From Flagellimonas sp. MMG031 (GTDB lineage Bacteria > Bacteroidota > Bacteroidia > Flavobacteriales > Flavobacteriaceae), in NCBI RefSeq assembly GCF_040112705.1, contig NZ_CP157804.1:250501-314500 (forward strand): a DNA stretch of 64,000 nt, written 5' to 3'. Position 1 is the stretch's first letter. Each line of letters begins with the position of its first letter. The notes under the pieces are model-generated. The model was given only the letters and a program-made list of their open reading frames with translations, was not told the DNA's origin and ran no database searches. Positions 31,902 through 52,468 of this stretch are shown here, piece by piece. The position numbers and the translations under genes were made by a program.

Positions 31902-31929
31902 ACCATACTTCATCATTTTTAAAAGGCTT

Positions 31930-32046
31930 TCTAAAAAGCGGTAAAATTTGAGCTTTGTCAGGTTGAGCGCAGTCGAAACCCATTGATTATCAATGCGTCT
32001 TAAGTTCTCGACTGCGCTCGAACTGACAGGTAAACTGCTTTTTAGA
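31930..32046. repeat. 117-bp nested palindromic intergenic element
   Basis: Outer arms TCTAAAAAGC (31930-31939) and GCTTTTTAGA (32037-32046) are perfect complements. Inside them, the stretches around TGAGCGCAGTCGA (left) and TCGACTGCGCTCGA (right) also pair, and the centre holds the perfect palindrome CATTGATTATCAATG (31981-31995). The inner arm sequence recurs inside leuS. No transposase or target-site duplication is visible. Confidence 0.85.
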
Positions 32047-32067
32047 CAGCCGCTTTTTATTTTTGGG

Positions 32068-33733: not shown

Positions 33734-33898
33734 AAGAGGGTGTCTGAAAATATTGTAATACGTCATTTTGAACCTGCCTGTCGGCAGACAGGTTTATTTC
33801 AGAATCTCATCATACATCATATTGTTAAGCAATGCACTATGAGAACCTGAAACAAGTTCAGGTTGACGAAAACAAAACCGACTTTTAGACACCCTCTT
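33734..33898. repeat. 165-bp nested palindromic intergenic element
   Basis: Outer arms AAGAGGGTGTCT (33734-33745) and AGACACCCTCTT (33887-33898) are perfect complements. Inside are a short hairpin CCTGCCTGTCGGCAGACAGG and a 30-bp unit at 33839-33868 that matches, in reverse complement, 28 of 30 bases of the element at 49316-49345. It lies between the cupin stop and the convergent tyrS stop and could also act as a two-way terminator. Confidence 0.85.
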
Positions 33899-43705: not shown

Positions 43706-44098
43706 TTAATTGAGTGTTTTCTTGGTTAAAATGTGATATCCCAATAAAATCCAACCTAAGATCAACAAAACCCCTCCAAAAGGTGTTAAAAAACCTATGA
43801 TTTTAAAGTCAAAAGCAGTCAAACTGTTCAATGCCAAAAGGTAAATTGAGAAGGAGAACAGCACCACGCCTGCCACAACAAGTCCATAAATGTACCTTTT
43901 TGGCTTACTGGACAGACCATCCCACATTCCCAAAAAAAGTAGGAACAGGGCGTGATACATTTGATACTTCACCCCAGTTTCAAAAGTGTCGATAGCTTCC
44001 GCATCTACCAATTTTTCCAAGCCATGGGCCCCAAAAGCACCCAAACCAATGGCCAACAAACCGAATACCATTCCCGTTAACAAAATTGTTCTGTTCAT
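43706..44098 (-). CDS. DUF423 membrane protein
   Basis: 130 aa with four hydrophobic helices; LAIGLGAFGAHGLEK at the N-terminus and FETGVKYQMYHALFLLFLG are the DUF423 (YgdD) signature. A small inner-membrane protein of unknown function. Monocistronic and divergent from the saccharopine dehydrogenase-like gene (78 bases between the starts). Confidence 0.92.
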   Translation of the reverse strand: MNRTILLTGMVFGLLAIGLGAFGAHGLEKLVDAEAIDTFETGVKYQMYHALFLLFLGMWDGLSSKPKRYIYGLVVAGVVLFSFSIYLLALNSLTAFDFKIIGFLTPFGGVLLILGWILLGYHILTKKTLN

Positions 44099-44176
44099 AA
44101 CTTTAACACGCTATTTTTTTAGAGATATAACATTTTAATACCTTAGTATCCCGAATATCAAAAGTAAACAAAACAC

Positions 44177-45550
44177 ATGGCCCGTACTATTTTAGTTGTT
44201 GGAGCAGGCAAATCAACCTCTTACCTCTTGGATTATCTCCTCGAAAAATCAGCAGAAGAACAGATTCACCTCAATATCGGGGATCTTCACCCGGAGAACA
44301 TTCCCGATAAATTTGCTTCGCATCCCAACTGTACGGTCTTTCAATTGGATATTTTCAACGAGACCGAACGCAAGAAAGCGGTTTCCGGAGCCTCCATTGT
44401 GGTTTCCATGCTGCCCGCCAGTCTGCACATCAATGTCGCACACGACTGTTTGGAGTTTGAAAAGCATTTTATTACCGCTTCCTATGTCAGCGATCAATTG
44501 CGGGCATTGGACGAGGATGTCAAGAAAAAAGAACTAGTTTTTATGAACGAAATCGGTCTTGATCCCGGTATCGACCACATGAGTGCAATGGAAGTCATTG
44601 ACCGAATTCGCGATGCGGGTGGAAAAATGTTGTTGTTCGAATCCTTTACAGGTGGATTGGTTGCTCCGCAAAGCGATACCAATCTTTGGCACTACAAATT
44701 TACCTGGAACCCTCGGAATGTTGTCTTGGCTGGCCAAGGAGGGGCTGCCAAATTTATTCAGGAGGGCACTTACAAGTATATTCCTTACCAGAAACTCTTT
44801 AGGAGAACCGAGTTTATGGATATTGAAGGATACGGCACTTTTGAGGCCTACGCCAACCGGGATTCGCTAAAATATCGGGAGGCCTACGGGTTAGAAAATG
44901 CATTGACCCTATTCCGTGGAACCATGAGGCGCGTCGGCTTTTCCAAAGCGTGGCAAATGTTCGTGATTTTGGGCATGACGGATGACAGCTACTCCATTGA
45001 AAATTCGGAAGGTATGTCGTACCGTGAATTCGTCAACCTCTTTTTGCCCTATTCCCCTACCGATTCCGTAGAACTTAAAATGCGACATTACCTTAAAATT
45101 GACCAAGATGACATTATGTGGGGAAAACTGTTGGAGCTGGACCTTTTTAATCCATCCAAAAAAATCCCATTAAAAAATGCGACACCTGCCCAGATGCTCC
45201 AATACATTTTGGAAGATAGCTGGACCCTGAAAGAGGATGAAAAGGATATGATCGTGATGTACCATAAATTCGGCTACGAACTGAACGGTAAAAAGAAGCA
45301 GATAGATGCCAACATGGTCGTGATTGGAGAGAACAGCGCCTACACCGCTATGTCCAAAACGGTTGGATTGCCGGTAGCCATGGCCACGTTGCTCATCCTT
45401 AATGAAAAAATAACGACCCCAGGGGTACAAATACCCATCTTGAAAGAGGTGTACGGACCTATTTTAAAAGAGTTGAAAACCTATGGCATCAGTTTTAAGG
45501 AATATGACAAACCCTATTTGGGCTATAATCCTGACTCTGTTGCAGGATAG
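44177..45550 (+). CDS. Saccharopine dehydrogenase-like oxidoreductase
   Basis: 457 aa. N-terminal Rossmann loop ILVVGAGKSTSYLLDYL, then VVSMLPASLH and NEIGLDPGIDHMSAMEVID, all conserved in saccharopine dehydrogenase (glutamate-forming) and related reductases. The family handles lysine degradation or synthesis, but carboxynorspermidine-synthase-like and other activities exist, so the reaction is not fixed. An Lrp-family regulator lies 49 bases downstream on the same strand, which fits amino-acid-responsive control. Confidence 0.88.
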   Translation: MARTILVVGAGKSTSYLLDYLLEKSAEEQIHLNIGDLHPENIPDKFASHPNCTVFQLDIFNETERKKAVSGASIVVSMLPASLHINVAHDCLEFEKHFITASYVSDQLRALDEDVKKKELVFMNEIGLDPGIDHMSAMEVIDRIRDAGGKMLLFESFTGGLVAPQSDTNLWHYKFTWNPRNVVLAGQGGAAKFIQEGTYKYIPYQKLFRRTEFMDIEGYGTFEAYANRDSLKYREAYGLENALTLFRGTMRRVGFSKAWQMFVILGMTDDSYSIENSEGMSYREFVNLFLPYSPTDSVELKMRHYLKIDQDDIMWGKLLELDLFNPSKKIPLKNATPAQMLQYILEDSWTLKEDEKDMIVMYHKFGYELNGKKKQIDANMVVIGENSAYTAMSKTVGLPVAMATLLILNEKITTPGVQIPILKEVYGPILKELKTYGISFKEYDKPYLGYNPDSVAG

Positions 45551-49266: not shown

Positions 49267-49315
49267 AGGGTATTTCTATAAGAATCGTATTGATTTTATC
49301 GTAAGGTGATGTTTT

Positions 49316-49393
49316 CGTCAACCTGAACTTGATTCAGGTTCCCATAAAACTGATTTAATTGTATGAGATTCCAAATCAAGTTCGGAATGACAG
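49316..49393. repeat. 78-bp palindromic intergenic element
   Basis: Imperfect inverted repeat with arms of about 30 bases: left CGTCAACCTGAACTTGATTC onward (49316), right ATGAGATTCCAAATCAAGTT onward (49363). The left arm matches the element at 33839-33868 (reverse complement) in 28 of 30 bases. Same family as the 165-bp element. Confidence 0.85.
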
Positions 49394-49408: not shown

Positions 49409-52400
49409 TTACCCGACAATATTCACAATCTTGCCAGGCACCACAATGACTTTCTTGGGTTCCCTGCCCTGTAACTGCTCTTTTGTTTTTTCATGGGCCA
49501 AAACAGCGGCTTCAATCTCATCCTTGCCCATATCCAAGGGTAATTCCAATTTGAAACGCATTTTCCCATTAAAAGATATCGGATATTCCTTGCTGCTTTC
49601 CACCAAATACTTTTCCTCAAATGTAGGGAAGGGGGCTTCCGCAATAGATTCCGTATGCCCCAAACGACTCCACAGCTCTTCGGCTATATGGGGCGCATAA
49701 GGTGATACCAGAATAGCCAATGGCTCCAGAATAGCTTTACTGGTACATTTTTGGGCCGTCAATTCGTTAACACAGATCATAAAAGTGGATACAGAGGTGT
49801 TGAACGAAAAGTTCTCGATATCCTCTTCCACCTTTTTGATGGTTTTGTGCAAGGTTTTTAGATTTTCGGCAGTGGGTTCCGCTTCGGCTCCGCTCAGCGA
49901 CCCATTTGTATATGGCGCATACAACTTCCATAGTTTCTTTAAGAAGGAATGTACTCCTGTAATCCCCGCCGTATTCCAAGGCTTGGATTGCTCCAAGGGT
50001 CCCAAGAACATTTCGTACAAACGCAACGAGTCTGCCCCGTACTCCTCACAAATGGCATCGGGGTTGACGACATTGTATTTGGATTTGGACATTTTTTCGA
50101 CTTCGCGGCCTACGATATACTTTTCATTGTTTTCTGTCAAAATCAATCGCCCATTATCTGAAAAAAATAATGATTCTTTTAGTTCAGGTTGCCAGTTCAA
50201 AAACGCATCGATATCCAGTTCATCAGAACTATTGACCAAAGTTACATCAGCATGGATGGGTTGTGTATTATGAATATTAATGGAAATATTAATTAAATTA
50301 GGACCCAGTACCCCGCTCAGCGCAATTTTCAAGGTCTCCTTGAAATCTTCCAATACGTCTTTATCAATTTTAAGGGAATCAAAAAGACCTTTTGAAACAA
50401 ACACATCAGTTTTCTTATTTGAACGTTGTCCCTCACTACTATCAAAACCCGGAATATAATCCAGCCTATAAACAAACGCACTCGTCCCCGTAATCATCCC
50501 TTGGTTGATCAACTTTTGGGCAAACTCATCTTTGGGCACATAGCCCATATCGAACATAAACTTCTGCCAAAAACGGGAATACAACAAGTGGCCCGTAGCG
50601 TGCTCGCTACCTCCTATGTATAAGTCCACATCTTGCCAATAGTTGATGGCTTCTGGAGAGAAAATAGCCTCATCGTTCAGCGGGTCCATATACCTATTAA
50701 AGTATTGGGAACTTCCTGCCCAACCCGGCATGGTGTTTAACTCCAATGGGAAAACAGTTTTATGGTCAATCAAGTCATTGGAAACTACTTTTTTATTCTT
50801 CGCGTCCCATGCCCATTCTGTAGCATTGCCCAATGGTGGCTCACCTGTTTCGGTGGGGAGGTATTTTTCCACTTTGGGCAGTTCCAAAGGCAAATATTTT
50901 TCATCGATCATCTGCGGCATACCATCCACATAATACACGGGGAAGGGTTCCCCCCAATATCGCTGACGGCTAAATACGGCATCACGCAAACGATAATTCA
51001 CTTTGCCCTTGCCATGTCCGATTCGTTCCAATTCGGCAATGATTTTCTTCATCGCATCCTTGTAGGAAAGTCCGTTTAGAAAATCGGAATTCGCAATGAC
51101 GGTAGTTTCTTTGTCAGCGAAGGCCTCTTCGGAAATATCGACCCCTTCAAAAATATTGGGGATATCTATATTGTAATGTTTTGCAAAATCGTAGTCACGT
51201 TGATCGCCACAGGGCACAGCCATCACCGCACCGGTTCCATAGCTCGCCAGTACGTAGTCGCCAATCCAAATGGGAATGGGCTCCTTGGTGAACGGATGCT
51301 CTGCATATGCTCCTGTAAATACTCCGGAAATGGTTTTTACATCGGCCATACGATCACGTTCGGACCGTTTTGCCGTGGCTTCCACATAAGCCTCCACCTC
51401 AGCTTTTTGTTCTGGCGTAGTGATTTTAGCCACCAGCTCATGCTCCGGGGCCAAGGTCATAAAACTTACCCCAAAAATGGTATCGGGACGGGTGGTGAAG
51501 ACTTCTATCTCGTAAGGCTTCTCGACTGCGCTCGAAGTGACATCGTCATTCGAAATCACCTCTTGGTCGCTTCGACTACGCTCAGCGTCCAATACATTAA
51601 AAGTAACGGATGCCCCAACCGAGCGTCCAATCCAATTGGTTTGGGAATCTTTTAGTGGTTGTGGCCAATCAATTTTATCCAATCCGTCCAATAAACGCTG
51701 TGCGTATGCGGTAATACGCATACTCCATTGCGTCATTTTTTTGCGGATCACGGGATGACCACCACGCTCGGAAACTCCGTTTACGATTTCATCGTTCGCC
51801 AAAACGGTTCCCAAGGCAGGACACCAGTTTACTTCGGTATCCGCCAAATAGGTCAATCGATAATTTAACAGGATTTCCTGTTTTTCTTTTTCTGAATACG
51901 CATTCCAGGTCGCTGCATCAAAACTTGGGGTGTCATCATCACAAGCGGCTTCGACATTGATATTTCCCTCTTTTTCAAAAATGGAAATCAAACTATCAAT
52001 GTTTTCAGCTTTATCGGATTTCTTGTTGTACCAAGCGTTGAACAATTGGATAAAAATCCATTGCGTCCATTTATAATATTGTGGATTTGAGGTTCGCACT
52101 TCGCGGCTCCAATCAAAAGAAAAACCAAGCTGGTCCAGTTGCTCACGGTACCGGTTGATGTTATTTTCCGTAGTAATGGCCGGATGCTGACCCGTTTGAA
52201 TGGCGTACTGCTCAGCAGGTAATCCAAAGGAATCGTAGCCCATGGGATGCAACACATTGAACCCCTTGTGACGTTTATAACGTGAATAGATGTCCGTTGC
52301 TATGTAACCCAGCGGATGCCCTACGTGCAACCCTGCACCGGACGGGTAGGGAAACATCGACAATGCATAAAATTTAGGCTTGTCGGAATCGTTGGATGCC

Positions 52401-52468
52401 TTAAAGGTTTCGTTTTCTGCCCAATACTTCTGCCATTTGGCCTCAATCTCGCGGAAATCGTAATTCAT
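49409..52468 (-). CDS. leuS: Leucyl-tRNA synthetase with in-frame repeat insertions
   Basis: 1019 aa, longer than the roughly 930-970 aa I expect in this class. HIGH motif in MFPYPSGAGLHVGHPLGY near residue 40, CP1 editing domain with FTTRPDTIFG near 325, KMSKS in REVEKMSKSKYNVVNP near 820 and a C-terminal anticodon-binding domain. Residues about 292-317 (LDAERSRSDQEVISNDDVTS) are encoded by the palindromic repeat at 51519-51590. Residues about 856-862 (SLSGAEA) come from a shorter copy at 49881-49900. A further stretch of about 45 residues near 700-735 also seems extra. Catalytic motifs are intact, so the enzyme should work. Confidence 0.95.
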   Translation of the reverse strand: MNYDFREIEAKWQKYWAENETFKASNDSDKPKFYALSMFPYPSGAGLHVGHPLGYIATDIYSRYKRHKGFNVLHPMGYDSFGLPAEQYAIQTGQHPAITTENNINRYREQLDQLGFSFDWSREVRTSNPQYYKWTQWIFIQLFNAWYNKKSDKAENIDSLISIFEKEGNINVEAACDDDTPSFDAATWNAYSEKEKQEILLNYRLTYLADTEVNWCPALGTVLANDEIVNGVSERGGHPVIRKKMTQWSMRITAYAQRLLDGLDKIDWPQPLKDSQTNWIGRSVGASVTFNVLDAERSRSDQEVISNDDVTSSAVEKPYEIEVFTTRPDTIFGVSFMTLAPEHELVAKITTPEQKAEVEAYVEATAKRSERDRMADVKTISGVFTGAYAEHPFTKEPIPIWIGDYVLASYGTGAVMAVPCGDQRDYDFAKHYNIDIPNIFEGVDISEEAFADKETTVIANSDFLNGLSYKDAMKKIIAELERIGHGKGKVNYRLRDAVFSRQRYWGEPFPVYYVDGMPQMIDEKYLPLELPKVEKYLPTETGEPPLGNATEWAWDAKNKKVVSNDLIDHKTVFPLELNTMPGWAGSSQYFNRYMDPLNDEAIFSPEAINYWQDVDLYIGGSEHATGHLLYSRFWQKFMFDMGYVPKDEFAQKLINQGMITGTSAFVYRLDYIPGFDSSEGQRSNKKTDVFVSKGLFDSLKIDKDVLEDFKETLKIALSGVLGPNLINISINIHNTQPIHADVTLVNSSDELDIDAFLNWQPELKESLFFSDNGRLILTENNEKYIVGREVEKMSKSKYNVVNPDAICEEYGADSLRLYEMFLGPLEQSKPWNTAGITGVHSFLKKLWKLYAPYTNGSLSGAEAEPTAENLKTLHKTIKKVEEDIENFSFNTSVSTFMICVNELTAQKCTSKAILEPLAILVSPYAPHIAEELWSRLGHTESIAEAPFPTFEEKYLVESSKEYPISFNGKMRFKLELPLDMGKDEIEAAVLAHEKTKEQLQGREPKKVIVVPGKIVNIVG
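49881..49900. repeat. Short palindromic repeat copy inside leuS
   Basis: GCTTCGGCTCCGCTCAGCGA differs at only two of 19 bases from the unit at 51569-51587. It is read in a different frame (peptide SLSGAEA), while the AERSRS frame is closed here. Confidence 0.7.
51519..51590. repeat. Palindromic repeat inserted in frame in leuS
   Basis: TTCTCGACTGCGCTCGAA at 51519-51536 is identical to bases at 32006 onward in the intergenic 117-bp element; counting six following bases, 23 of 24 agree. A second unit, CGCTTCGACTACGCTCAGCG (51568-51587), follows after 31 bases. On the leuS strand it is translated, giving the peptide AERSRS. Confidence 0.85.

Follow-up and report, generated by a model that had tools for sequence, protein, structure and literature searches.

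Hairpin repeat units in the leuS reading frame of Flagellimonas sp. MMG031 and in other core genes of its genus

The leucyl-tRNA synthetase (LeuRS) gene, leuS, of Flagellimonas sp. MMG031 lies in a 64-kb window (the whole stretch of DNA analyzed here) of a 3.76-Mb genome, hereafter G000, which consists of a single contig and, among named relatives, is closest to Flagellimonas, Allomuricauda or Muricauda. Parts of this reading frame look like a repeat that stands between genes elsewhere in the window, and the locus raises the question of how such DNA comes to be translated within an essential enzyme. Very probably, these segments of leuS arose as copies of a hairpin repeat with a TGTC tag, of the repetitive extragenic palindromic (REP) or Rickettsia palindromic element (RPE) type, which inserted and survived in frame in tolerant loops. 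Only one full-length LeuRS match was found for G000 among the matches listed.

Repeat units in leuS and their structure

Three units lie in leuS, two at site 1 and one at site 3, and they match an intergenic composite element of the same window (Table 1). A sequence-only reading of the window had drawn attention to this match. The 24-mer at 51,519 is identical to the element at 32,005 at 23 of 24 bases, and this is beyond chance, as 200 other leuS 24-mers compared with the window outside leuS peaked at 19. The copy at 49,881–49,899 differs from 51,569–51,587 at two of 19 bases, as had been claimed, and the two are indeed translated in different frames, as AERSRS from LeuRS residue 295 and as SLSGAEA from residue 857. 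The second unit proposed at site 1 is also present, to which we add that both units there have the same orientation and read AERSRS and SSAVEK. The first insertion had been placed at the entry to the editing domain; this agrees with PF13603, which spans residues 278–480, and with the position of the site opposite about residue 238 of the Thermus enzyme (1h3n), positions on the LeuRS fold being taken from sequence alignment.

Table 1. Features of leuS and of the intergenic composite element, in window coordinates
Feature	Positions	Strand	Basis or remark
leuS, leucyl-tRNA synthetase, 1019 aa	49409..52468	-	HVGH at residues 48–51 and KMSKS at residues 792–796
Unit A, leuS site 1	51568..51587	-	Stem CGCT/AGCG around GAGCGTAGTCGA; reads DAERSRS; without TGTCA tag
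Unit B, leuS site 1	51518..51542	-	TGTCA tag, stem CTTC/GAAG around GAGCGCAGTCGA; reads VTSSAVEK
Unit C, leuS site 3	49880..49899	-	Stem CGCT/AGCG around GAGCGGAGCCGA, one core mismatch; reads SLSGAEA
leuS site 4 (LIDHKTV), residue ~566	50753..50773	-	Repeat-free in G000
Composite element, ~130 bp, two units tail to tail	31923..32052	+	Intergenic
Left-unit core of composite element	31965..31976	+	Core match
Right-unit core of composite element	32008..32019	-	Core match
leuS hypervariable region, residues 660–790, just before KMSKS	50099..50491	-	Alignment

The unit is 24–27 bp long and is laid out as a lead, commonly TGTCA, a stem of 4–5 bp, the 12-nt core GAGCGNAGTCGA and the complementary stem. 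With up to one mismatch, the core occurs five times in the window against 0.21 expected, a count reached by none of 100 shuffles. The exact core is found 112 times in G000 (67 + 45) and its reversed control 0 times. Chance similarity of the leuS segments to the repeats was ruled out by these genome and window counts together with the 24-mer control. At least one core was found in 34 of the 35 genomes of the genus (congeners) searched, with a maximum of 119, while among 23 genomes outside the genus G036 has 21, G051 has 25 and the rest have 0 to 2.

For analysis of the hairpin, 105 of the 112 exact cores were inspected (100 listed places and five from fetched stretches). Stem positions -1 to -4 form Watson–Crick pairs in 101, 104, 102 and 99 of these copies, against means of 52, 64, 27 and 37 when partners are shuffled; the fifth position pairs less (66 against 42), and from the sixth on pairing is at chance level. 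Twenty-three distinct fully paired 4-bp stems occur, and pairing is full in 85 of 95 distinct 30-mers. The letters of the stem vary while the hairpin structure and the core stay constant. Tag positions -9 to -6 are T, G, T and C in 79, 72, 73 and 70 copies, respectively, and no conserved bases lie 3' of the stem in the 105 copies. Nineteen neighboring pairs are less than 100 bp apart, with 12 arranged tail to tail, five head to tail and two head to head. Seven cores were also noticed within 800 bases at contig 43896–44668 of G000, where there are no convincing genes.

The composite element was compared with G059, the genome that carries the same species label as G000. At the matching place G059 lacks the element and has a terminator-like hairpin instead, while elsewhere in G059 sequences that agree with the element at 95 or more bases occur at 14 or more places (40 of 112 candidates scored). 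Set against a miniature inverted-repeat transposable element, the element has inverted ends and is absent from G059, but a target duplication could not be read off, a different hairpin standing at the G059 site. A second intergenic family, of AACCTGAAACAAGTTCAGGTT type, has inverted copies at 33,838–33,879 and 49,305–49,346 of the window, and similar sequence is translated as LKQVQHD in the leuS of some congeners.

Copies in other genes and the history of the sites

Genes in the G000 stretches were called by a crude codon score, by which the majority of unit copies are intergenic. Most of a bacterial genome is coding, and in-gene insertions must therefore usually be lost. Twelve of the 105 exact cores are internal to high-scoring open reading frames (ORFs), a count that leaves out copies near ORF starts (contig 52268, 282508 and 1713241). 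The genome-wide search for coding copies proposed in the sequence-only reading thus yielded ten exact copies, across eight genes, whose coding context is supported on both sides of the unit: leuS and purL, with two copies each, and hemW, prmC, argD, trpF, the ATP-dependent DNA ligase gene and a GSCFA gene. Support came from orthologue alignment for leuS, purL, hemW and prmC, and from family models for hemW, prmC, DNA ligase, argD, trpF and the GSCFA gene; the argD and trpF matches run the whole length of the model yet score under the curated cut-off. The unit is read in four ways, as ERSRS, as RAQSR or RAKSR, as SSAVE and, on the opposite strand, as STALD or STTLN. The two remaining copies, in mfd, were left out because the reading frame is broken in G000. 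This gene (contig 938897–939907) seems to be interrupted, with open frames of 336 and 769 aa and two units, where most congeners have a matching frame of 1132–1186 aa; the interruption may be a sequencing error or a pseudogene.

Relatives show the same sites empty, filled or filled differently. At leuS site 1 some congeners, such as G018 with FNVKDEDDTI, have a short turn, as do most orthologues from other families, with a CCCTCC hairpin in G041. Other congeners carry DAERSRSDQ, VTSSAVEK, the inverted arm ISTPLNH, nested PAGQAGS, LKQVQHD or a whole ORF of the DUF559 nuclease family. In 80 named records the loop holds various repeat-like sequences, with GTCATTGCGAGCGAAGCGAAGCAATC (VIASEAKQS), VIPTERSDEES, VTSSAVEK, LKHVQHD or GAATTCAGAATTC runs, and an Aquimarina record has a DUF559 remnant. 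The alignment of orthologues suggested by the sequence-only reading thus gave, in other genera, a short turn or a different repeat-like sequence at this place; the peptide VTSSAVE does reappear beyond the genus, but there its DNA is that of the repeat itself. This outcome does not refute the sequence-only reading, which would have been countered by the same peptide segments in other genera without DNA similarity to the repeats. Among 113 distinct site-1 segments, pooled from congener and named-record sets with overlapping genomes, 47 have at least one of eight repeat signatures. Different sequences have probably filled the entry loop of the LeuRS editing domain on more than one occasion.

Similar variety was seen at the other sites. 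Site 4 of leuS holds in-frame repeats in G059 and several congeners. Site 1 of purL is filled in 4 of 30 rows, and purL site 2 has the unit in either orientation and in different frames, or a CCCTC..GAGGG-like hairpin. The hemW site is filled in 17 of 30 rows, and the prmC linker (30 rows) contains at least three kinds of sequence, namely the unit, TCAGAAGTCAGAAATC-type runs and a nested CCTGCC/GGCAGG repeat. On a tree of 29 genomes built from PurL plus RecG, the fewest changes required are three for leuS site 1 (28 rows, scored as filled or empty by length), six for hemW (26 rows), two for purL site 1 (29 rows) and three for DUF559 in recG (29 rows).

Units may themselves be sites of insertion, and the unit and another hairpin repeat are found nested within one another's loops. 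The prmC unit of G000 holds 21 extra nt, a CCTGCC/GGCAGG-type repeat in its loop, where G059 has the plain unit, a clean same-species event. Elsewhere in G000 one unit lies within the loop of another at a 24-nt step (contig 749185, 752078, 757717, 798274 and 940507). Contig 748755, 752449 and 2785080 look like further nested composites, and such composites lend themselves to tracing where an insertion begins and ends. Nested GC-repeat inserts measure 21 nt in three coding cases and 19 nt in one intergenic case; these lengths, though few, fit selection for frame. Filled alleles probably move by recombination too. In recG, G000 has a DUF559 ORF and G059 has none; the flanking bases differ as well, and import or loss is possible.

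A separate kind of variation was noted just before KMSKS, a position which we take to be that of the leucine-specific domain. In 34 genomes of the genus, G000 included, this hypervariable region ranges from 73 to 162 residues, and its median pairwise identity is 38% against 88% for the rest of LeuRS. It differs even between G000 and the same-species G059, and in a protein collection searched with limited sensitivity (24 candidates) the G000 region matched only the cluster of its own species. A repeat origin was considered and dropped, as no repeat was seen within the region. The pattern points to diversifying selection on this essential synthetase or to an exchange of alleles.

Constancy of the units and how they may be inserted

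Whether DNA or peptide is conserved was examined at synonymous codons. In hemW, 22 of 435 same-residue codon comparisons differ within the unit, against 43–44% in the flanks, and in the rest of the gene the codons for Ser, Arg, Ala and Gln differ in 50% (13 of the 17 filled rows; two rows with nested inserts were excluded and two were filtered out). In leuS, where 15 of 81 rows from several genera were used, those with a VTSSAVE-type motif, 84 of 633 synonymous comparisons differ in the unit against 5229 of 10,392 in the flanks. Synonymous codons in the units are far more constant than those of the flanks, and it is therefore the DNA, not the peptide, that is conserved. Selection on amino acids alone would permit synonymous drift, which leaves repeated insertion or overwriting, or a selected hairpin. 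Such constancy shows parts of essential proteins to be shaped by processes at the level of DNA. Together with the empty sites in congeners and the ten copies in eight genes, it supports the sequence-only reading in its central claim, that the leuS segments derive from the repeat and were inserted in frame.

These figures bear directly on the view that the inserted peptides are adaptive and retained for their amino acid sequence, through effects on LeuRS editing, on its stability or on the binding of partners. AERSRSD does persist at leuS site 1 in many congeners, and an insert at the entry to the editing domain could have consequences. The same loop is nonetheless occupied by unrelated peptides from different strands and frames, and G018, with 95% identity over its first 668 residues, has it empty; with the constancy of synonymous sites, this makes an adaptive peptide highly improbable.

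Selection might instead act on the hairpin, kept for a function in mRNA or DNA, such as pausing, mRNA stability or protein binding, with the in-gene copies included. Strong stem covariation, an invariant core and the scarcity of synonymous change in coding copies speak for this explanation. Presence per gene is patchy, as the six changes at hemW illustrate, and orthologues manage without the unit. A known RNA family was also set aside for the intergenic element, for which one 351-base stretch gave only a sub-threshold Rfam match and none above the gathering score. We regard a hairpin function as possible but somewhat doubtful.

In the reading preferred here, insertion and survival in frame, the unit would be DNA of a selfish or structural kind, copied into place by an enzyme working on the hairpin while the DNA is single-stranded. 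Most copies landing within genes would be lost, and those in variable loops that leave the frame intact would survive, with existing repeats offering further targets. The encoded peptide would probably be neutral ballast, and renewed insertion, gene conversion between copies or selection for the hairpin could hold the hairpin DNA constant.

Several observations weigh against this reading. Synonymous constancy is equally explained by selection on hairpin function. The site 4 insert of G059, which reads VTLSAVDGSDKGDEMLNQVQHDG in place of LIDHKTV, is likelier to be a recombination import, because the string in G029 is near-identical. Sixty-six of the 113 site-1 segments have no repeat signature, though some resemble worn copies, and as site 1 requires only three changes on the tree, its recurrence rests on the differing contents. 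A target-site duplication was not established at the insertions compared. With up to one mismatch, AGCGACGAGGAATC occurs 3, 3, 3, 1, 1, 4, 2 and 0 times in eight genomes, leuS copies included, although the search may miss relatives because the pattern includes stem letters and stems vary. The idea that the leuS loop of each relative holds an abundant resident repeat was thus not borne out for the AGCGACGAGGAATC type. It does hold for the GAGCGNAGTCGA unit in this genus; the other leuS-loop types are presumably common repeats outside it. Lastly, the Y1_Tnp and REP-associated tyrosine transposase (RAYT) models match nothing in G000, and no core was found in the 12 loci inspected of the 17 Y1_Tnp matches listed.

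The last result concerns the proposal that RAYT-type transposases spread the units, as has been proposed for GTAG REPs. REP-associated transposases score above the curated cut-off in three of 23 congeners (G001, G013 and G020). The 12 Y1_Tnp loci without a core include those of these three genomes, the tag is TGTC and not GTAG, and the highest copy numbers occur in G005 and G000, both of which lack RAYT. A RAYT or IS200-type spreader is therefore unsupported by the two models and the loci inspected, and we consider it very unlikely.

DUF559 (Vsr-like) nucleases offer another possible agent, with a hairpin–DUF559 ORF–hairpin arrangement as the full element, which would insert in frame, and solo hairpins as its remains. 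Whole DUF559 ORFs stand in frame at leuS site 1 of the congeners G001, G007 and G033 and in recG of G000 (contig 2639599), G001 and G012. In G000 another lies in frame in a gene that we take to be hsdR-like (contig 582597), and one is joined upstream of a gene that we take to be rnpA-like (contig 600656). Other records have such in-frame ORFs as well, in methionine synthase, in LeuRS and in a single protein that bears the label IleRS. A search with the leuS-borne DUF559 returned 1180 proteins; among the 120 listed, 105 by our own count have the LeuRS editing-domain family and nine have methionine-synthase domains, the domains of the fusions being rechecked in three proteins. Apparent scars of in-frame hairpins are present in recG of G007, G021 and G026, congeners whose recG lacks the ORF, and in leuS of an Aquimarina record.

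The ends of these ORFs were then compared with controls. In a stricter, sequence-level test run before that for hairpins, terminal inverted repeats exceeded the highest of 400 controls in 8 of 32 rows, or at only 6 of 25 distinct places. GC hairpins are enriched, lying upstream at 20, downstream at 16 and on both sides at 10 of 27 usable sites (from 33 loci), against 1.7, 1.5 and 0.17% at 600 random positions, a control that is mostly coding and unmatched for terminators. On this evidence DUF559 may reasonably be proposed as a mobile nuclease gene bounded by hairpins, and its cases suggest a concrete enzyme candidate for certain hairpin repeats without a transposase of their own. Its hairpins are of CCCTCC/GGAGGG types and not the GAGCGNAGTCGA unit, however, and that it spreads hairpin repeats of this sort in general seems unlikely. 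A broader version, in which loops of essential enzymes in Flavobacteriaceae, chiefly the entry to the LeuRS editing domain, are standing landing pads for several hairpin elements, the full-size member of one family being a hairpin-bounded DUF559 gene inserted in frame and translated with its host enzyme and the short palindromes its remains or dependants, is likewise tentative and rather improbable, the more so because the AGCGACGAGGAATC type was not found to be abundant in its own genomes. If true, it would amount to a type of mobile element not described before, resident within essential reading frames and never spliced out.

Comparison with known systems

Rickettsia is the best-known source of palindromic repeats inserted in frame, and here such repeats are found in core enzymes of a marine genus. 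Among the literature matches listed (titles and the starts of abstracts), no paper was found on in-frame repeats in Flavobacteriaceae leuS, nor on in-frame DUF559 ORFs. Since sites are seen empty, filled, nested and polymorphic within a species, gain, choice of frame and decay can be traced base by base.

The sequence-only reading had likened the leuS segments to Rickettsia palindromic elements. RPE-1 is described, in the part of the source drawn on here, as palindromic selfish DNA of about 150 bp that encodes a conserved peptide and lies in frame within unrelated genes (Ogata et al. 2000, 2002, as reviewed in PMC10969869). The likeness holds in kind, as palindromes have here too entered unrelated protein genes in frame, eight in all. 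It does not extend to membership, because the present units are 24–27 bp long, TGTC-tagged and read in several frames (ERSRS, RAQSR, SSAVE and STALD).

With the GTAG REP/RAYT system the unit has tagged hairpins, many copies and paired units in common. It differs in its tag, and no RAYT was found in G000 or beside units in the loci inspected. VsrA of Caulobacter, which has the same domain as the ORFs that lie in frame in several genes of relatives, leuS and recG among them, is a DUF559 Vsr-like protein studied as a nuclease of mismatch-repair type, and the part of that account drawn on here makes no mention of in-frame insertion (PMC12907096).

The nearest described class is that of the CGTC/TGTC-tagged REPs, of which the present unit is a distinct variant. 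According to the part of the source used here, this class is said to include RPE-4, RPE-6 and dRS3; it has a CGTC, TGTC or CCTC tag, a stem of 8–9 bp, a loop of 4–5 nt, a three-base tail that is mostly CCA, and dimers that are predominantly head to head (Di Nocera, De Gregorio and Rocco 2013, PMC3733652). In the same part, Bacteroidetes is among the five phyla named, some copies are in ORFs, including those of tRNA synthetases and repair genes, and no dedicated transposase is given (PMC3733652). The present repeats are likewise short, tagged, high-copy hairpins, mostly intergenic with some in ORFs, for which no transposase was found. Unlike that class, they combine a freely varying stem of 4–5 bp with a fixed 12-nt core, have no conserved tail, and when closely paired usually stand tail to tail (12 of 19 pairs). 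Because stem and loop sizes, tail and dimer type differ, the unit was not placed in any of the four CGTC/TGTC REP families. The class also offers a parallel for the reuse of one site: as reported in the portion of the paper drawn on, recB of two Xanthomonas species, the one such case described there, carries different REPs at about the same site (PMC3733652), and the LeuRS entry loop, filled by different repeat-like sequences, extends that case to many genera.

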